Part shown: positions 1 through 35,138 of the stretch, piece after piece | Layout of the letters: every line of letters starts with the position of its first letter | Position numbering within the stretch: position 1 is the first letter of the stretch | DNA from: Halobacteriales archaeon QH_7_66_36 | Lineage (GTDB): Archaea; Halobacteriota; Halobacteria; Halobacteriales; Haloarculaceae | Direction: 5' to 3' | Assembly: GCA_003021175.1 (NCBI GenBank) | Contig: PXQV01000016.1 | Coordinates: 1 to 35,138 of the forward strand | Length of the DNA stretch: 35,138 nucleotides | The notes under the pieces: model-generated | Seen by the model: the letters and a program-made list of their open reading frames with translations, nothing else | The model's database searches: none | What the model was told of the DNA's origin: nothing | Position numbers and translations under genes: made by a program

Positions 1-57
1 GGCTTCGCCGCCACGCTGCTCCCCGCTCGCACTTTCCGAGGCGCGTTGCGCCTCGCT
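1..57 (-). repeat. In-frame palindromic element inside purD
   Basis: Read on the coding strand this gives SEAQRASESASGEQRGGEA within PurD. It contains a hairpin with arms GAGGCGC/GCGCCTC around a GTT loop (39-55 on the + strand). It aligns without gaps over 19 codons, in the same frame, with 33470-33526 inside nrdJ; I count 40 of 57 identical bases. The far end may lie outside the window. I read it as a mobile or recombining element tolerated inside proteins. Confidence 0.7.
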
Positions 58-660
58 GGCCACCAGCGCCTGCACAGTGAACTCCTCGCCGACGAGTCGC
101 TCCTCCAGCACGACGCGGTCGTAGTCGCTGTCGCGGAGATACGCCTTCGCCTCCGCGGCGGTCACCTGATCGCCGATGACGCGGACGCCCTTTCCGCCCG
201 TCAGGCCGGCCGGCTTCACCGCGAGGTCGCCGTCGTACTCGTCGATGTACGCGCACGCGGCCTCGGTGTCGTCGAACGTCGCGTAGTCGGGGTTGCCCGC
301 GATGTCGTGCTCGTCGAGGAAGGTCCGTTGGAACTGCTTGTCCGTCTCGATGCGCGCCTCGGCGGCGTTGGGCGCGAACGCGTAGACGCCGGCGTCGTCG
401 AGCGCGTCGCTCACACCCGCGGCGAGGGGCGCTTCCGGCCCGACGACGGCGACGGTGGCGTCCACCTCGCGGGCGTAATCGACGACCGCCTCGGGGTCCG
501 TCTCGTCGAGCGTCTCGACCTCCGCCGCGAGCGACGCGATGCCGGGATTCCGGTTCGACGCGCAGGCGTACAGGGTCGCGTTCGAGCGCGCAACGGCGCG
601 AGCGATGGCGTGTTCGCGGCCACCGCCGCCGACGAGCAACACCCGTTCGTCCTCGTGCAT
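1..660 (-). CDS. purD: Phosphoribosylamine-glycine ligase (GARS), N-terminal part, cut by window edge
   Basis: Second step of purine synthesis: ATP-dependent joining of glycine to phosphoribosylamine, in the cytoplasm. The 220 visible codons begin MHEDERVLLVGGGGREHAIA, the glycine-rich N-terminal loop of PurD, and run through the N domain into the ATP-grasp region. The family segment EEFTVQALV is present at about residues 192-200. The start ATG (658-660) lies about 28 bases from a TATA-like element, so it is probably leaderless. Oddity: directly after EEFTVQALVA the reading frame enters a low-complexity Ala/Ser/Glu/Arg/Gly stretch that I do not expect in PurD (separate entry). The C-terminal half lies outside the window. 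The gene is divergent from the histidine kinase at 785. Identification is firm from the motifs. Confidence 0.93.
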   Translation of the reverse strand, partial: MHEDERVLLVGGGGREHAIARAVARSNATLYACASNRNPGIASLAAEVETLDETDPEAVVDYAREVDATVAVVGPEAPLAAGVSDALDDAGVYAFAPNAAEARIETDKQFQRTFLDEHDIAGNPDYATFDDTEAACAYIDEYDGDLAVKPAGLTGGKGVRVIGDQVTAAEAKAYLRDSDYDRVVLEERLVGEEFTVQALVASEAQRASESASGEQRGGEA

Positions 661-7694: not shown

Positions 7695-8004
7695 GGTAGT
7701 GTTCAAATAACAGCGATTCAGCTGGAGGAGCCAGCAACAGAGTGTAGAAAGCCCCCGGTCGCTGCGGTCGCGCGCAGCGCGGACCGTCGGTCGGGCTGTG
7801 GTGTCCTCGCGCGGTTCCACCGCGCGAGCGGGCCGAGGGACCGGCGGTCACTCGCGGCTCACGTCGTCGGGCTTCTCGTAGCGCCCACCGGGAGAGCGAC
7901 GCTCTCCCGAGCAATCGGCGGCAAAGCCGCCGATAACGGCCCCTCTCAGTCCCGCCCACCGCAGTTGCCCAGTCGAGCGACGACCCGCTGATCTGAACAC
8001 TACC
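7695..8004. repeat. Structured repeat element, copy A (MITE-like)
   Basis: A non-coding element bounded by inverted ends GGTAGTGTTCAAAT (left) and GGTAGTGTTCAGAT (right, reverse complement), 13 of 14 matching. Inside are hairpins: arms CTCGCGCGG/CCGCGCGAG (7806-7828), GGGAGAGC/GCTCTCCC (7890-7908) and ATCGGCGGC/GCCGCCGAT (7914-7934). It shares two blocks with copy B at 22327-22663, which lies in the opposite orientation: one from the TGTAGAAAGCCCCC motif at about 7743-7785, the other about 118 bases at 7868-7985. I see no clear target duplication. The terminal sequence resembles the GG-N3-TGTT-CAAA pattern of IS6-family ends from memory; this is not verified. Confidence 0.75.
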
Positions 8005-22326: not shown

Positions 22327-22663
22327 GGTATTGTTCAAATAAATGGGTCGTCGCTCGACTGAACAACCGCAGCAGGCGGGACTGAGAGGGGCCGTTATCG
22401 GCGGCTTCGCCGCCGATTGCTCGGGAGAGCGTCGCTCTCCCGGTGGGCGCTGCGGGAAGCCCGGCGTTCGGAAGACGCGGTGCGTCTTCCGCAGCCCAGC
22501 AGCAATCTGCGATTTCTGCGGACGGTGCAAGCAGCGAGGCGACGCCGCCGCTCACACGGCCCGCGGACCTCCGGTCCGCGCTGCGCGCGACCGTAGCACC
22601 CGGGGGCTTTCTACATCTTATTGGCCGACTATTCGCCGAACTCACTCTTATCTGAACACTACC
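22327..22663. repeat. Structured repeat element, copy B (MITE-like), inverted relative to copy A
   Basis: Ends: GGTATTGTTCAAATAA on the left, and GGTAGTGTTCAGATAA read inward from the right on the opposite strand. The reverse complement matches copy A (7695-8004) closely in two blocks. The conserved hairpins are ATCGGCGGC/GCCGCCGAT (22397-22417) and GGGAGAGC/GCTCTCCC (22423-22441). The variable hairpin here is GGAAGACGC/GCGTCTTCC (22470-22490), unrelated in sequence to the CTCGCGCGG hairpin of copy A but still perfectly paired. It is 27 bp longer than copy A. With the purS upstream region it fills the gene-free stretch 22140-22710. Confidence 0.75.
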
Positions 22664-28135: not shown

Positions 28136-31100
28136 TCAGCACTCGGACCAGCCGCAGGACTGACACGTCTTACAGCCCTCGTTCATGGCGAGCGACATCG
28201 CGCCGCAGTCCGGACACTCGGGCGACTCGCCGGCGGCGAGCAGTGACGCCGTGTCGTCACCCGTCGCGGCGGCCGCACCGCCGTCGGTCTCCGGTTCGGC
28301 TGCGTCCGGATTCTGCCCCGGGTTGCGGTCCCGCTCGCGGTTCGGGTCCGTCTCCTTCTCGGCGGAGCCGGCCGCCTCCGAGAGGCTCTGCTGTTGCGGA
28401 TACACCCGGTCGATCTCGTCGTCGAGGTAGCGACGGAGAGCGACGCCGAACGCGTCCGGGATGGAGTTGATCTGCTCGCCCTTGTCCCACGCGACTTTCG
28501 GCGACCGGATGCCGTTGAGCTTGTCGACGATCTCGTTCGGGTCGACGCCCGAGCGGAGCGCGACGGAGATGGTCTTCGCCAGCGCGTCCGTGAAGGAGTT
28601 GGTGAAACCACCCGAATGGCCCGTGTTGGCGAACAGCTCGAACGGCTCGCTCGTCTCGGGATCCTCGTTGATGGTCACGTACAGCTTTCCGTAGCCGGTT
28701 TCGATGCGCTGAGTGACGCCGTGAAGCTGGTCGGGACGCGGCTTCTTCTCCGCGTAGACGCGCGGCTCGGCTTCGAGCAGGTCGTCCGGCCCCTCGATGT
28801 CCGCCTCGACCGCCTCGTGGTCGAGGAACGCTTCGAAGCTGCCGAATATCTCCTCGACCTTCTCGGAGATGACCTCGGCGGCCTCGTCCTCGTCCATGTC
28901 CTCGGAGAACTCGGTGTTGTCCGCACGCGTGGTGAGCACCTGCTTCGAGCGGGTGCCGTCGCGGTAGACGGTGACGCCCTTGCCGCCGTGCTCGTAGATG
29001 TAGCGGTACACCTCGTCCATGTCCTCCTTGGTCGCGTCGTTGGGGAAGTTACACGTCTTCGAGATGGCAGAGTCGACACCCTCCTGACAGGCACACTGCA
29101 CGGCGGCGTGGTCCTTGCCGGAGAGGTCGCCCGTCACGACGAACAGTTCGCCGATGGCGTCCGGCACCGTCGAGAGCCCGTCGACGCCGTCGAACTCGTT
29201 GGTCGCCATCTGCTCCTGTGCCTCCTGCTTGACGGCGTCGACGTCGATGTCGTTCGCCTCCAGCGTGCGCAGGAAGTAGTCGTCGAACTCGACGAGCATC
29301 TCGTCGCCCTGCACGTCGTCGGAGACGTTCTTGTAGTAGGCGACGTTGTAGATCGGCTCACAGCCACCCGTCGTGTTGCCGACCATGCTCGTCGTGCCCG
29401 TCGGCGCGATGGTCGTCGTGTTGTGGTTCCGGATGGCGTAACCGTCGGCCCAGTCCGCGGCCGACTCGCCGGTCTGCTTCTCGAACCACTCGGCGTAGTC
29501 GGTCGGGTTCGCGTACTTCGAGTTGCTCCACTCCTCGAAGGTGCCACGCTCCTCGGCGAGTTCGTGGGAAGCGTGCTTCGAGCCGTGGTTGATCCGTCGC
29601 ATCACCTGCCGTGCGACTTCGTTCCCTTCCTCGGAGCCGTACTTGATGCCGAGCTGGATGTACAGCTGTGCCAGCCCCATCACGCCGAGACCGATCTTCC
29701 GCATCTCGCGGACCTTCTCCTCGATTTCGGTGACCGGGAAGTCGGACATCGTGACGACGTTTTCGAGGAAGCGGGTTCCGAGCCGGATGCGCTCCTCGAA
29801 CTCCCCGGTGTCGAGCGCGTCTTCGAGGAACCGCTCGACGCCTTCCTCCAGCGTGGCGAACTCGTTACGCTGTGACCAGACGCGCCAGTCGGGCGCTCCT
29901 TCGGCGGCGAGCGTCGAGAGGTTGATGTGGCCGAGGTTACAGGCCTCGTACTCTTCGAGCGGCTGTTCACCACAGTTGTGGACTACAACTCCGTTTCCGA
30001 TAAACGAACTCGTCTCAGGCTCGGTTAAATCGTACACTTGTTCGGTCTTATCGTACTCAACGGAGTCGACTGTGGCAACGAAGGTTTCCGAACACGGTCC
30101 TTTCGTATACGAGTCGATGTGCGCTTCGAGTTGTGATTGCTTGTCCTCGCGCAGGAGTCCAATCTCGTCGCGGAAAGTGACAAGATTTTCTTTCGAAACG
30201 ACGAGGTCGTGGAATCCTTTCGTGTCGTACTCTTTGGTTCCACCCTTCCCGTCGGGAAGCTCTCGCGTACCTGATGGTTTCCGCTCCTCGTAGATCCGGC
30301 TAGCTATACCGAAGTTGAGCAGGAGTTGCTGCGTCTGTTTGAGGAGGTCGAGTTCCGAACTAGCAAGGCGAACCGTGCGGCCGTTTTCGGGCGTTCCTTG
30401 CACGCTACCGTCGGCGGTGAACAGCGCTTGGAGGAATCCACGAGCCATCTCTTCGGTCCCCCGCATGACTGCATCGGGAACCTGTAGTTTTTCCTCGACG
30501 AGACCGACCTCCTCGGCTATCTCGTAGAGCCGAGCGGAACGGATACGCTGCTCGACGGCCTGCGCCCCACGGTAACCGTCGCTTCGACTGATGTCGCTCA
30601 CGCCGACCTCGTAGTCGGCGTTTCCGACCGGGTCGCGGACGACTTCGTTCACGTCAGCGGCGAACGACTCCGAAATCTCACTATCCCCGTCGTAGAAGTT
30701 GAGTATGGCACGCTCCTCGCCGTGTTTGAGGTGGCCGTCACCGACGGTCCAACCGAGGACGCGACCCTCTGCGGCAGAGCCGTGCTGTCCGAAGCTCCCC
30801 TTCCGGTTCTGGATGTGAACCGTGTCGCCCGCGTCAAGGTTACCCGCCTCGACCCAGCCGTCGTCGGTCATGACACGGTGGTCGGCGGTCACGCGGAGTT
30901 CGTACCCTTCCTCGGTCGTCAGCTCGAACACGTCCTTCTCGCCGGTCTTGTAGACGCTGCTGGCTTCCTTGACCGTCTCCTCACTCAGCCGACCGTCGAC
31001 GACGATATCCTGTGCTGTTCCCCGCTCGTACAGCTCTTCGGCGGGGACGAGTCCGTTACCCGTGTTTATAAGCGTGTCACCGGTGACACACGGGTTCGTC

Positions 31101-33835
31101 GCGAGGATGCGGTGGTCCGGGTGCTCCTCAACGTCGAAGGAGTGCTCCTTGTTGATGCGTTCGAGGTAGACGACGCCCGGCTCGCCGTTCTCGTGTGCCC
31201 CGTCGACGATGCGGTCCCAGATGAGGTTCGGATCGAGCGACAGCGGCTCGCCGACCGTCACCTCGTCGCCGAGCCCGTACCGCGAGTACATCTCCTTCGT
31301 CTCCTCGCTGGCGACGTGTGGCTCGCCGGTGCGGGGGTTGGTGAAGGTGAACTCCTCGCCGGTCTCCAGCGCCTCCATGAACTCGTCGGTGACGCCGACG
31401 GAGATGTTGAAGTTCGAGAGGTGGCCCTCGACGGCGTTCCGGAGGTGTTTGGGCACCTTGCCGTCCTCGTCGATGAGGCCGCGCGCCTCCTCCAGCGCCT
31501 CGGAGAAGGTGGTGTACGTGTAGTCGTCGGGGTCGTTCAGGCGGAGACAGTGGGCCAAGGAGACGTCCTTGTTCTTCGCGTGGATGAACTCGATGACGTC
31601 GGGATGCGAGATGCGCATGACGCCCATCTGCGCGCCGCGGCGGGTGCCCCCCTGCGCGATGGTCTCACACATCTGGTCGAACGTGCGCATGAAGGTGATG
31701 GGCCCGGAGGCGATGCCGCCGGTCGACCCGACAGCATCTCCATAGGGGCGTAATCGCCAGAAAGCATACCCCATTCCGCCGCCGCTGTTGTGCGAGACGA
31801 GACCGTCCGTGACGTATTCGTGGTTGTCCGCGACCGTGATGTCGTAGACGGTCCCGTCGCCGGATTCGACGACGGACTCGACTTCGACAGTGTACTCGGC
31901 GTCACCGGAGTAGGAATCGCGGGCGTCCACCGATTGGATGCTCTCGATACCGACTTCGTGTCGCTCGTCAACGAATCCGACCTCGCGGATGAACGCCTCC
32001 CGGCCACGACCAGTCGTCGGGACCAAGCCGTAGTATGGGTGAGCCTCCTCGTCGCGGATGACGGATTTCTTGACGGGGTAGCCAAGCCCCATCATCAGCG
32101 TCGCGACATCGTCGATGGCCCGTTCGGAGGCGCTGTACAGCTTGGGGTACGTACCGTTCAGCAGCGTCCCGTCGGCGGTAAAGTATCCTCGGAGGAACGC
32201 CTCGACCGTCTCGGCGGGGGCGTTCTTCATTACCTGTGGGACGTAGGCCGACGGCGCGCCGTCGGGCTTGCAGTCGAAGTTCGCCCGCCACCAACGCTTG
32301 ACCTCGTGGCTGTTGATAGCCACCTCGTAGCAGCCGTCGGCGAACGTCCGCGAGGTCGGTGTGCCGAACAGCTGCCGTGACAGGTGGTCTACGTAGTCGG
32401 CGATGCTCTCGCGGCCGGCATGGAACCGGATGCCGTCTTGGTGCCAAGAGCCGTCGCCGAGCCAGAGCCCGACGAGTTCGGCGAGTTCCTCAGTTAGTAC
32501 CTCTGGCTGTCTGACGGACTTGACCGCCGTCCCGTTTGACTCGAGCTGCTTGCGTGCGCGAAACTGCCCGACCGTTGTCTGGTGGGCATCGAGCGCCTCG
32601 GCGATCTCCGCGTCGGTGTGTCCCTCTTGGTACAGCTCCAGCGCGACATCCTCGTCGAACGACGTGGAACCACGCTTTCGCCCGCCATCCCCGTTGGGCG
32701 GGAGCTTGAGTTCGTTGCTGCGGCGGCGCTGAATCGTGGATTTACCACATTCCAGTCGGTCGGCTATCTCGTAGTCGCTGAGCCCCTTTCGGTACAGTTC
32801 GACGATTTCGGCGTTCTCGACGCCCCGGTTGTCAGCCCACTGGGCACCGCTCGCGACGGAGGCCAACTCCGGGGTCTCCCGAGTGGTTTCCCGAAGCCAG
32901 CCGAGCGCGTAGCTGACTTCCTGACCGGCTCGAATCTCGTCGAGACGCGTCCACTCGCCGTCGACCGCGAGGCGGTGGTTCGGCGTGCCACTGACCGACA
33001 GACCGTTATCGAGATGTACCGTCAGCGTCTCCGCGCTCTCGTAGACGTGGGTGTCCTCGACCGGCTTGTACTGAAAGCCGCTCTCCGTACGCTGGGCGAT
33101 TCGGTCGCCGACCTCGACCTCGGAGACGCTGATGATTCCCCGGTCCTCGGTCATGACGGTCGACTCCTCGGTGAGACACTGGAACACCTCGGCGGCCTCC
33201 TTGGCTGTTTGATGAATGTCAGTTAGGTCGTCGGCCGGGCTGTCGACGAAACACGCCGACAGCTGCTGGAGTTCGTCGCCGGCGTTCATCAGCGTCGGCG
33301 AGTTCGGGACGAAGGAGAGCCGCTCCATCAGCTCTTGGAACTCCGCCTGCTTCGCCTCGACGTGGTCGCGGATCTCGTCGGGGAGCTCTGGCACGACCGT
33401 CTTGTAAGCAAATTTGTTGACGTTGTGCACCGACAGCTCGGTCTCGACGTCGGAGTCGGCGTCGGTACCGGCTTCTTGTCGCGGGCTCTGCCCGCTCGAA
33501 CGGCCCGAGGCGCTTCGCGCCTCGCTGCCGAATACCTCGCTCGCGAGCTCGTCGCGGCGGGGGTGGTCGGGCTTGAGCTGGTCGGGAGTGACCGTCACCT
33601 CGACGTCCTGCTTTTCGGCCTCGAAGACGGCCTCCGCGAGCGCGATGTTCTCGGCGACCCGTTCGAACAGATCCTCCTGTGATTCAACGAGTTCGCCGTC
33701 GTGGTCCTTGCGGAGATACCGCGCGGGCAGGATGTTGTGGTATGCGTTCGCGGTGAGTCGGTCTTCGAGCGTCTCACCGTCGGTGCGTTTGATCGGCAGG
33801 GTGAGCTCGTCCGCGGACAGATCTGCCCCAGACAT
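28136..33835 (-). CDS. nrdJ: Class II (adenosylcobalamin-dependent) ribonucleotide reductase with two inteins
   Basis: Reduces ribonucleotides to deoxyribonucleotides using a B12-derived thiyl radical. The precursor has 1899 residues; removing two inteins (464 and 372 aa) leaves about 1063. Extein signs: redox Cys195 in LQQLSACFVDSP, SGGGMGYAFWRLRPYGD, TRRGAQMGVMRISHPDV, radical-site NPCGEQPLEEYEACNLG (split by intein 2), the family block GTTSMVGNTTGGCEP and a C-terminal zinc ribbon (CPDCGAMS, CKTCQSCGWSEC). I chose ATG 33833-33835 (MSGADLSADELT); upstream frame is leader. Oddities: both inteins, and an Ala/Ser/Gly/Arg insertion at about residues 104-122 (separate entry). Confidence 0.95.
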   Translation of the reverse strand: MSGADLSADELTLPIKRTDGETLEDRLTANAYHNILPARYLRKDHDGELVESQEDLFERVAENIALAEAVFEAEKQDVEVTVTPDQLKPDHPRRDELASEVFGSEARSASGRSSGQSPRQEAGTDADSDVETELSVHNVNKFAYKTVVPELPDEIRDHVEAKQAEFQELMERLSFVPNSPTLMNAGDELQQLSACFVDSPADDLTDIHQTAKEAAEVFQCLTEESTVMTEDRGIISVSEVEVGDRIAQRTESGFQYKPVEDTHVYESAETLTVHLDNGLSVSGTPNHRLAVDGEWTRLDEIRAGQEVSYALGWLRETTRETPELASVASGAQWADNRGVENAEIVELYRKGLSDYEIADRLECGKSTIQRRRSNELKLPPNGDGGRKRGSTSFDEDVALELYQEGHTDAEIAEALDAHQTTVGQFRARKQLESNGTAVKSVRQPEVLTEELAELVGLWLGDGSWHQDGIRFHAGRESIADYVDHLSRQLFGTPTSRTFADGCYEVAINSHEVKRWWRANFDCKPDGAPSAYVPQVMKNAPAETVEAFLRGYFTADGTLLNGTYPKLYSASERAIDDVATLMMGLGYPVKKSVIRDEEAHPYYGLVPTTGRGREAFIREVGFVDERHEVGIESIQSVDARDSYSGDAEYTVEVESVVESGDGTVYDITVADNHEYVTDGLVSHNSGGGMGYAFWRLRPYGDAVGSTGGIASGPITFMRTFDQMCETIAQGGTRRGAQMGVMRISHPDVIEFIHAKNKDVSLAHCLRLNDPDDYTYTTFSEALEEARGLIDEDGKVPKHLRNAVEGHLSNFNISVGVTDEFMEALETGEEFTFTNPRTGEPHVASEETKEMYSRYGLGDEVTVGEPLSLDPNLIWDRIVDGAHENGEPGVVYLERINKEHSFDVEEHPDHRILATNPCVTGDTLINTGNGLVPAEELYERGTAQDIVVDGRLSEETVKEASSVYKTGEKDVFELTTEEGYELRVTADHRVMTDDGWVEAGNLDAGDTVHIQNRKGSFGQHGSAAEGRVLGWTVGDGHLKHGEERAILNFYDGDSEISESFAADVNEVVRDPVGNADYEVGVSDISRSDGYRGAQAVEQRIRSARLYEIAEEVGLVEEKLQVPDAVMRGTEEMARGFLQALFTADGSVQGTPENGRTVRLASSELDLLKQTQQLLLNFGIASRIYEERKPSGTRELPDGKGGTKEYDTKGFHDLVVSKENLVTFRDEIGLLREDKQSQLEAHIDSYTKGPCSETFVATVDSVEYDKTEQVYDLTEPETSSFIGNGVVVHNCGEQPLEEYEACNLGHINLSTLAAEGAPDWRVWSQRNEFATLEEGVERFLEDALDTGEFEERIRLGTRFLENVVTMSDFPVTEIEEKVREMRKIGLGVMGLAQLYIQLGIKYGSEEGNEVARQVMRRINHGSKHASHELAEERGTFEEWSNSKYANPTDYAEWFEKQTGESAADWADGYAIRNHNTTTIAPTGTTSMVGNTTGGCEPIYNVAYYKNVSDDVQGDEMLVEFDDYFLRTLEANDIDVDAVKQEAQEQMATNEFDGVDGLSTVPDAIGELFVVTGDLSGKDHAAVQCACQEGVDSAISKTCNFPNDATKEDMDEVYRYIYEHGGKGVTVYRDGTRSKQVLTTRADNTEFSEDMDEDEAAEVISEKVEEIFGSFEAFLDHEAVEADIEGPDDLLEAEPRVYAEKKPRPDQLHGVTQRIETGYGKLYVTINEDPETSEPFELFANTGHSGGFTNSFTDALAKTISVALRSGVDPNEIVDKLNGIRSPKVAWDKGEQINSIPDAFGVALRRYLDDEIDRVYPQQQSLSEAAGSAEKETDPNRERDRNPGQNPDAAEPETDGGAAAATGDDTASLLAAGESPECPDCGAMSLAMNEGCKTCQSCGWSEC
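29975..31090 (-). other. Intein 2 in NrdJ (372 aa, LAGLIDADG-type)
   Basis: Inserted between ATNP and CGEQPLEEY of the host. It begins CVTGDTLINTGNGLVPAEEL (Cys1) and ends IGNGVVVHN, with Cys as the next host residue, so all splice residues are present. Block B is TADHRV (about 68-73). Two dodecapeptide endonuclease motifs are seen: RVLGWTVGDG (about 110-119) and FLQALFTADG (about 219-228), each keeping its acidic residue. The DNA of its second half is visibly less GC-rich than the extein, as expected of a mobile insert. The flanking +1 Cys is the radical-site cysteine of the reductase. Confidence 0.92.
31787..33178 (-). other. Intein 1 in NrdJ (464 aa, with tandem HTH insertion and LAGLIDADG endonuclease)
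   Basis: Inserted between EAAEVFQ and SGGGMGYAF. It begins CLTEESTVMTEDRGIISVSE and ends NHEYVTDGLVSHN, followed by Ser, so the splice residues are complete. Block B is GTPNHRLAVDGEW (about 74-86). Residues about 120-212 hold two similar helix-turn-helix units, ELYRKGLSDYEIADRLECGK and ELYQEGHTDAEIAEALDAHQ. Endonuclease motifs are ELVGLWLGDG (234-243) and FLRGYFTADG (328-337), both with the acidic residue. It is probably an active or recently active homing element. Confidence 0.92.
33470..33526 (-). repeat. In-frame palindromic element inside nrdJ
   Basis: Encodes SEARSASGRSSGQSPRQEA between ASEVFG and GTDADSDVETE of NrdJ. It holds two hairpins: arms CGAGGCGC/GCGCCTCG with a TTC loop (about 33507-33525) and CGGGC/GCCCG with a TCT loop (about 33483-33495). 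It is the partner of the purD element at 1-57: same length, same frame, 40 of 57 bases identical by my count. Confidence 0.7.
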
Positions 33836-33897
33836 CACTCCGCCCTCCCGCCGGCGTGAACGCCGGAAACGGTGGTGTTCGTGTGGAGATGGTTCAT
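33835..33897 (-). CDS. Possible leader peptide (20 aa) coupled to nrdJ
   Basis: A short ORF beginning MNHLHTNTTVSG whose TGA overlaps the nrdJ ATG as TGATG, the classic coupling arrangement. Its coding sequence contains a strong hairpin, CCGGCG-TGAA-CGCCGG (33851-33866), about 15-30 bases before the nrdJ start. It starts about 40 bases downstream of the likely TATA element. It may be a real regulatory leader, or simply untranslated leader sequence. Confidence 0.35.
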   Translation of the reverse strand: MNHLHTNTTVSGVHAGGRAE

Positions 33898-33930
33898 GGT
33901 GGTTCGTAGCGACGCGTGCTTCTCTGCCGG

Positions 33931-33947
33931 GCCAAATAACCCTTGGC
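33931..33947 (-). promoter_or_regulatory. nrdJ promoter candidate with inverted repeat
   Basis: GCCAA-ATAACCC-TTGGC: an inverted repeat enclosing GGTTATTT on the minus strand, the best TATA-like site upstream of nrdJ. A protein bound here would cover the TBP site, so this could be a repressor operator. Confidence 0.4.
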
Positions 33948-34230
33948 ACTGCGGGCAGTTATCGGCGATCCTATCCGACACTGTGAGCACTGCGTGAATG
34001 GAACGACTGGCACTCACGCGGATTCGGCCGGTACACCAGTAAGGTGACTTCGGGAGTAATATAAGCCTGAGTAGACCGCAGTGAAAGTGGAGACTTCGAG
34101 ATGAAACGTTGGTTTCGTCCTGCGGTTCGCCACCAGAAGCGAAGGGGCCTTCGAGACGGGGGGTCGCCGCGGAGTCTGCTCCGACGTACGAAGCGTTCGG
34201 CGACCGAGTCACTCGACGCTCGGCCCACGC
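33948..34230. other. Intergenic stretch, no gene recognised
   Basis: Lies between the nrdJ promoter and the small membrane gene. It has one good TATA-like site, TAATATAAG near 34055-34064, with no convincing coding sequence after it. A 65-codon frame at 34101-34298 is very basic and overlaps the next promoter. A small untranslated RNA starting near 34085 is possible. Confidence 0.3.
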
Positions 34231-34461: not shown

Positions 34462-34553
34462 CATCCTCCGCGTCGTAAACGGAGAGGGAGCGAAGCTCCC
34501 TCAGGCAACCGGGCGTAGCCCGGCGAAGGCGCGGTTTCCCGAGCGTTGGGATA
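34459..34553 (-). ncRNA. Probable TnpB guide-RNA scaffold (omega/right-end RNA), 3' part
   Basis: The stretch between the tnpB stop and the right end carries three GC-rich hairpins (see the mobile element). In TnpB systems this region is part of the right-end RNA, whose guide is copied from the flanking DNA just beyond the end. Here the guide would come from about 34440-34458, the last codons of the small membrane gene. Inferred from position and structure only. Confidence 0.4.
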
Positions 34554-35138
34554 TTATGGTTCGCGGCGCACCTGCTCTTGTAGGGCGACTCCCCCCGTGG
34601 ATTTGTCGAACAGCCGCACCGCTGGCTGTGCCATCCAGCCGTTATCCCTATCTCCCCCATCACAGGCGAGACTCGGGAGTACCTTCTGTCGGATGTTCTC
34701 GGCCCCGTTCACGAACCCATAGGTTGCACACGATTTCGACGTGTCGCGTTCGTCTACGCGCTCGACGCTGATGCCGCGCTCTGCGGCTTTGTATTCCAGC
34801 ATCTCGGTGAAGCGGTCGAACGCCCACCCGTGCAAGTCCAGATTCCCGTGGTCGCCCCAATCGGTGTCCTCACGGATACCAGAGAGGTCGCCCACGACGA
34901 TGGTCCCGACATTCCGGGCGGCGCACTCGGCCACGATGTCCGTCGAGACGGCATAGAAAAAGTGGGCGCGGCGCTCGTCACGCTTCCGGTCCAGTCGCCG
35001 TGCCTTCTGTGAGTCGCTATCGTCGCACTTGGCCCGCTCTTTCTGGAAGTAGTAGTCGTCCTCTTTGAGCGCCCCACCGGGATACAGTAGGGCGTCATCG
35101 CCAACGGCGACCGCCGCAAAGTTGCAGATGCCGAGGTC
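34554..35138 (-). CDS. tnpB: TnpB-like protein, C-terminal part; zinc ribbon and third catalytic Asp missing
   Basis: TnpB is an RNA-guided RuvC-type DNA nuclease of IS200/IS605 elements. The 194 visible codons begin exactly at the first RuvC motif, DLGICNFAAVAVG (Asp at the window edge). They continue through QKARRLDRKRDERRAHFFY, the second motif VVGDLSGIRE (Glu), and then RDTSKSCATYGFVNGAENIR. Intact relatives have a CxxC...CxxC ribbon of about 30 residues between SKSC and VNGAENIR, ending NADVNGAENIR, whose Asp is the third catalytic residue. Here that stretch is gone and the second Cys position is Tyr. The frame stays open to TAA. Likely nuclease-dead. Confidence 0.82.
   Translation of the reverse strand, partial: DLGICNFAAVAVGDDALLYPGGALKEDDYYFQKERAKCDDSDSQKARRLDRKRDERRAHFFYAVSTDIVAECAARNVGTIVVGDLSGIREDTDWGDHGNLDLHGWAFDRFTEMLEYKAAERGISVERVDERDTSKSCATYGFVNGAENIRQKVLPSLACDGGDRDNGWMAQPAVRLFDKSTGGVALQEQVRREP

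Follow-up and report, generated by a model that had tools for sequence, protein, structure and literature searches.

A dispersed palindromic element of Halobacteriales lies in a single reading frame within many housekeeping genes

Rickettsia palindromic elements (RPEs) are dispersed bacterial palindromes of ~150 bp that lie in frame in unrelated metabolic genes, where they encode a conserved peptide; in R. conorii, almost half of them are located in open reading frames (PMC10969869, a review). Among haloarchaea, the PATEs of Haloquadratum walsbyi are transposase-free, carry palindromes near both ends and generate no target duplication, and the SMR-A elements of Haloquadratum are short (~110 bp), have terminal inverted repeats, generate no target duplication and insert into the palindromes of other mobile elements; in the available portion of the source, in-frame insertion with a conserved peptide is not reported for PATEs, and SMR-A is not described as coding (PMC3119063).

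The element described here looks like an archaeal counterpart of the Rickettsia coding palindromes. The likeness to RPEs proposed in the initial annotation of this DNA is apt as an analogy, as in-frame copies occur in many housekeeping genes on one strand and in one frame, and both kinds of element give unrelated host genes a shared peptide. In contrast to RPEs, the haloarchaeal unit is 54 bp long (inserts of 45-54 bp compared with ~150 bp), has two hairpins, is archaeal and order-wide, and keeps to one frame throughout the coding copies examined, the two systems being compared by description only. It is treated here as a new variant of RPE-like behaviour and not as a member of the RPE family. 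Like PATEs, it has near-end palindromes and no target duplication, but its kinship to IS605 ends is weak; like SMR-A, its units nest, both in each other and in MITEs. It shares short dispersed palindromes with the REP/RAYT (TnpA-REP) system. REPs are extragenic by definition, whereas many of the haloarchaeal copies lie inside genes, and copies also occur in genomes without a Y1 match. Finally, a MITE family with terminal inverted repeats GGTAGTGTTCA hosts many of the non-coding copies, but the coding units lack such repeats and are bounded at the 54-bp unit; these MITE hallmarks, terminal inverted repeats and target duplication, are absent from them.

The window analysed is the whole of contig C16 (35138 bp) from a 2.6 Mb haloarchaeal genome in 18 contigs. 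Two 57-base stretches, in purD (1-57) and nrdJ (33470-33526), both on the minus strand, had been reported to align without gaps at 40 positions, and exactly 40/57 identities were found. By comparison, the next best 57-mer in the window, searched on both strands by ungapped comparison with the purD stretch, has 31. The GCGAGGCGC..GCGCCTCG hairpin is present at both sites, and the two open reading frames are both open in the same frame. The features at these sites are as follows.

1-660, minus strand: purD, N-terminal 220 codons (host gene).
1-58, minus strand: compound element in purD, SEAQRASESASGEQRGGEA, cut by the contig start and absent from 18 relatives.
1-18, minus strand: first bases of a second hairpin unit in purD (CAGCGTGGCGGCGAAGCC...), incomplete at the contig end.
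37-55, minus strand: hairpin 1 of the purD copy, CGAGGCGC-AAC-GCGCCTCG, a zero-mismatch pattern match.
28136-33949, minus strand: nrdJ open reading frame (host gene), 1937 codons, with apparent inteins.
33476-33529, minus strand: inserted 54-bp unit in nrdJ, 18 codons, GSEARSASGRSSGQSPRQ, with an empty site in congener G001.
33481-33495, minus strand: hairpin 2 of the nrdJ copy, GCGGGC-AGA-GCCCGC, from covariation and DNA folding.
33506-33524, minus strand: hairpin 1 of the nrdJ copy, CGAGGCGC-GAA-GCGCCTCG, 8 bp stem, from folding and covariation.

The similarity between the two sites is unevenly distributed, with 31/38 identities over the initial stretch and 9/19 over the remainder. A terminal GAAGCC, previously read as the common end of both copies, is an accidental match: the purD tail CAGCGTGGCGGCGAAGCC opens another hairpin unit, and the terminal GAAGCC of purD and nrdJ is therefore not homologous. 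Homology of the final 19 bases was accordingly dropped. At purD the element is a compound one that the contig end cuts off, its last ~19 bases belonging to the second hairpin, which starts like the copies at C1:163083 and C11:31022. Because the contig begins within the insert, only the left border of the purD copy is visible, after FTVQALVA. The purD element gave a weak, partial match to the covariance model described below (15-58, E 0.0135), and the nrdJ copy matched at 33471-33527 with 76.7 bits, its unit borders being uncertain by 2-3 bases. As single-stranded DNA, the nrdJ element folds at -18.6 kcal/mol (z -2.96).

A BLASTN search with the nrdJ copy yielded further copies, twelve of which were aligned to build the covariance model. 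This model detected 104 matches in the genome at E<=1, 89 of them at E<0.0015, with E-values down to 5e-16; the exact hairpin pattern with zero mismatches is found genome-wide at the purD and nrdJ sites only. The element is thus not confined to the two starting sites but has dozens of further copies. Matches were present in 129/146 genomes at the family level and in 225/293 genomes, representing 69/87 genera, at the order level. In a phylum-wide sample of 197 genomes, 25 had matches and all 25 lie inside the order, which is a good control for specificity. Among the named genomes scanned, the exact pattern occurs in Haloarcula amylovorans, Hcl. vallismortis, Halosimplex carlsbadense, Halorussus litoreus, Halovivax, Halostagnicola, Natribaculum breve and Natronococcus pandeyae, and it also occurs in several Halobacteriales metagenome genomes. 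The strict pattern was not found in viral contigs, the peptide matched no PDB chain, and the element matched no Rfam family, the loci scanned giving only tnpB sense-overlapping RNA and tRNA. The element and its peptide look undescribed in the literature searched, which lay largely outside subscription journals.

Comparison with relatives bears out the proposal that the added residues interrupt conserved family sequences, as they are absent at both sites in close relatives (18 PurD homologues and five NrdJ congeners), none of which carries them as ordinary sequence. In the 18 PurD homologues from related genomes, FTVQAxVA(N/D)GxxR is continuous, and the NrdJ proteins of G001 (96% identical) and four other congeners have no insert. 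DNA alignment to the congener places the 54-base nrdJ insertion after TTCGG, the empty site in G001 reading TTCGG^GGCTGG and likewise in the other congeners; the insert is found in 1/6 congeners. At the DNA level, inserts of 54 bp in sufD, 51 bp in rnp1 and 45 bp in leuC were likewise defined against empty sites in G001, and one of 54 bp in an XPD-type helicase gene against G004. The lengths at these five sites, 45-54 bp, are multiples of three in every case. SufD has 405 residues in empty species and 423 in filled ones. No target-site duplication longer than 2 bp was seen in the empty-site alignments. With dispersed copies, precise in-frame inserts opposite empty sites, covarying stems (below) and one strand and frame observed, the family is very probably a dispersed, non-autonomous palindromic element of Halobacteriales that is mobile and translated in place.

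The occupancy of individual sites is patchy. The SufD insert is present in G000 and G005 and absent from the closer relative G001, and the identical SufD insertion site is used in two congeners and another genus and not in the closest congener (L085, L245, L136); an insertion hot spot, loss or transfer are alternative explanations. Sites that recur across genera, namely those in SufD and at 'EGNHAVKNA', could reflect old inheritance, transfer or conversion instead of repeated jumping. For uL29 and trpA, G005 is empty, and G001 carries shorter hairpin-like remnants (L231 and L226, respectively) in place of the full units of G000, as though elements decayed through internal in-frame deletion.

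The unit comprises 54 bp, RRY-AGC...CGA-GAA, or 18 codons, with palindromes near both ends. Hairpin 1 pairs over 8-9 bp around a loop of three bases, frequently GAA; in hairpin 2, a conserved GA/GA internal loop separates a 6 bp stem from a 3 bp outer stem. Across 39 copies, each taken from a distinct coding site, standard pairs make up 98.3% of pair cells, and 10/17 stem pairs show changes on both sides. None of 500 shuffles reached any of five stem measures, and pairing fell to 33-53% in slid controls. These statistics indicate that the stems of coding copies are kept as well as in the first, mixed set, and single-strand DNA folding gave z-scores of -3.0 to -4.3. Paired changes are also seen at a single locus, the XPD site, where G000 has GCGGAGC/GCTCCGC and G005 has GTGGCGC/GCGCCAC. 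The conservation of stems in coding copies may mirror selection on a mobile source rather than on each inserted copy. PATEs and other IS200/IS605 derivatives have a fixed target of 4-5 bases on their 5' side; upstream of the present unit, a purine is found at -2 in 39/39 and at -1 in 38/39 sites, with looser preferences beyond, and these positions may belong to the unit.

Many non-coding copies in this genome lie inside the MITE with terminal repeats GGTAGTGTTCA, of which the window contains two.

7695-8004, strand not assigned: MITE of ~310 bp with terminal repeats GGTAGTGTTCA.., containing a diverged non-coding copy at 7799-7857 (minus strand).
22327-22663, strand not assigned: MITE of ~337 bp of the GGTAGTGTTCA kind, containing a partial non-coding copy at 22534-22583 (minus strand).

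Members of this MITE family are ~310-340 bp long (up to ~400 bp elsewhere in the genome) and hairpin-packed, with terminal repeats GGTAGTGTTCAGATAA and the conserved motifs GGGACTGAAAGGGGC and GGGGGCTTTCTACACC. Units occur within units in the MITEs and in trpA, whose insert is composed of several units.

On the mobile-element reading, copies insert into genes, into the MITE family and into each other without target duplication longer than 2 bp. More tentatively, the single-stranded hairpins may be the substrate of mobility, as in IS200/IS605-type elements and haloarchaeal PATEs, and a transposase might be supplied in trans. Y1 transposase genes (PF01797) are found in 95/146 family genomes, and copies occur without a PF01797 match in several genomes, among them G005 (4 copies), G021 (17) and the incomplete G001 (34); supply in trans or loss of the gene are possible explanations for these genomes. 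A Y1 transposase was considered as the mobiliser and set aside, as it showed no clear link with the presence of copies.

A related question is whether the unit descends from an IS200/IS605 (IS1341/tnpB) end, either as a remnant or as a derivative that kept the terminus only, in effect a very short PATE. Such an origin is compatible with the mobile element favoured here and is a tentative possibility, somewhat less probable than its opposite. The 3' end of a tnpB gene at C14:231623 matches the covariance model at 32.7 bits and carries, on its antisense strand, a pair of hairpins in matching order, a tnpB end in the window has a similar pair at 34483-34524, and the PATEs, with near-terminal palindromes and no target duplication, include a 52-bp terminal-only form (PMC3119063). 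However, the similarity is weak and concentrated in hairpin 1, no full-length IS turned up that carries both ends of the element, and the tested Y1 loci contained no convincing unit, giving only matches at E>0.1. Within the window, the tnpB C-terminal part is represented at 34508-34684 and 34554-35138 (both minus strand), with the Rfam sense-overlapping RNA sot0042 at its 3' end; the pair at 34483-34524 lies just past this gene in a layout like that of the element's two hairpins.

For analysis of the reading frame, 220 copies were classified from their 5' and 3' flanks alone, using GC3-GC2 (cut-off 0.33) and open frames; the sample comprises high-scoring matches rather than an unbiased census. 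Of these copies, 70 were called coding: 66 share one sense frame, L276 joins them once a 2-base model indel is allowed for, and three are exceptions, so that 67/70 share one strand and one frame. When re-read after the fact, the exceptions L121 and L324 are also in the common frame, in which L324 has a cupin domain match; the third, L323, lies upstream of an apparent start codon and looks intergenic. After removal of L323 and the in-frame MITE call C3:7506, 44 distinct sites remained, mostly in housekeeping genes, with insertion in one frame and a shared peptide. The families that profile searches confirmed for selected hosts include SufD, TrpA, MoeA, an SDR enzyme, LeuC, a cobalt/magnesium chelatase subunit, IleRS, an acetylglutamate/acetylaminoadipate kinase, a mercuric reductase/lipoamide dehydrogenase-like enzyme, enolase, topoisomerase I, oligopeptidase F, GyrB, a class II (F-type) and a class I tRNA synthetase, an AMP-binding enzyme and glutamate synthase.

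The used frame is the sole one nearly without bulky hydrophobic residues (1.4%, compared with 9-29% in the other five), and its mean net charge is -0.6, compared with +0.9 to +4.3. Stop codons are frequent in the first sense frame only (24/46 site elements). Since stops do not account for the choice of frame, purging of copies in other frames is the simplest reading; insertion directed to one frame would be the alternative. We infer from the open, conserved frames that the element is translated and the peptide retained in the mature protein. Survival of a coding copy would require translation of the sense frame S(E/A)xxSAxRSSGQSPRE(D/E)G. The resulting peptide is hydrophilic, has a near-neutral to slightly acidic charge and contains hardly any bulky hydrophobic residues, and for this reason a host protein would tolerate it in a surface loop; copies read in any other frame would be purged. 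The composition of the used frame fits the earlier description of a 'soluble, disordered patch'; an AlphaFold2 model of SufD (6-sequence alignment) had a mean pLDDT of 33 and was uninformative on the insert. Known TrpA structures align to query residues 1-48 and 107-158 of TrpA, and the insert lies between these two segments, a position consistent with a loop.

The peptide could instead be positively selected, for example as a solubility or salt-adaptation patch, with the palindrome spreading because it helps its host. The hydrophilic frame, the D/E/G-rich flanks and the repeated insertion at the same site of SufD and of another enzyme in several genera would suit such a benefit, but we consider it unlikely given the patchy occupancy (SufD in G000 and G005 and not in G001, nrdJ in a single congener), the unrelated enzymes struck and the many copies in non-coding MITEs. 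Removal of the insert from the mRNA, in the manner of archaeal bulge-helix-bulge introns, would leave the protein unchanged and accords with strong, covarying hairpins; it is very improbable, because a spliced insert needs neither the fixed frame, nor the multiple-of-three length, nor the avoidance of hydrophobic residues, all of which are seen. That no mobile element exists, and that GC-rich composition and convergent low-complexity Ser/Glu/Arg/Gly loops produce the likeness, is hardly credible: the acidity and GC-richness of haloarchaeal loops, and the abundance of Ser/Glu/Ala at some host sites, speak for it, but the E-values, the confinement of matches to one order, the conserved linker, the clean borders against empty sites at the loci tested and the covarying stems all argue against it.

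A further-reaching and probable reading is an order-wide archaeal selfish element under two simultaneous constraints, with DNA/RNA hairpins that its spread requires and one frame that encodes a harmless 18-residue peptide within essential enzymes; it would be the first such family of coding mobile palindromes in Archaea. If so, Rickettsia is not alone in having protein-coding mobile palindromes, a different form of which would have emerged across an entire archaeal order. Copies are present in culturable genera, Haloarcula and Natronococcus among them, which makes the system tractable, and it opens questions about the tolerance of mobile DNA in essential proteins, the making of new loops from inserts and the enzyme that moves short hairpin units. 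For annotation, it marks repeat-derived segments in trpA, sufD, leuC, enolase and gyrB genes.

Two further observations concern the host genes of the window. A second purD fragment begins at a contig end (G000:C3:1-1070, L070). Its 5' ~430 bp are divergent (60% protein identity) and its 3' part matches a congener, and it therefore looks like an assembly chimera or a mosaic/recombinant gene; it was rejected as a source of the right border of the purD insert. The NrdJ open reading frame, by reading, seemingly contains two inteins, one of them with HTH-like repeats.
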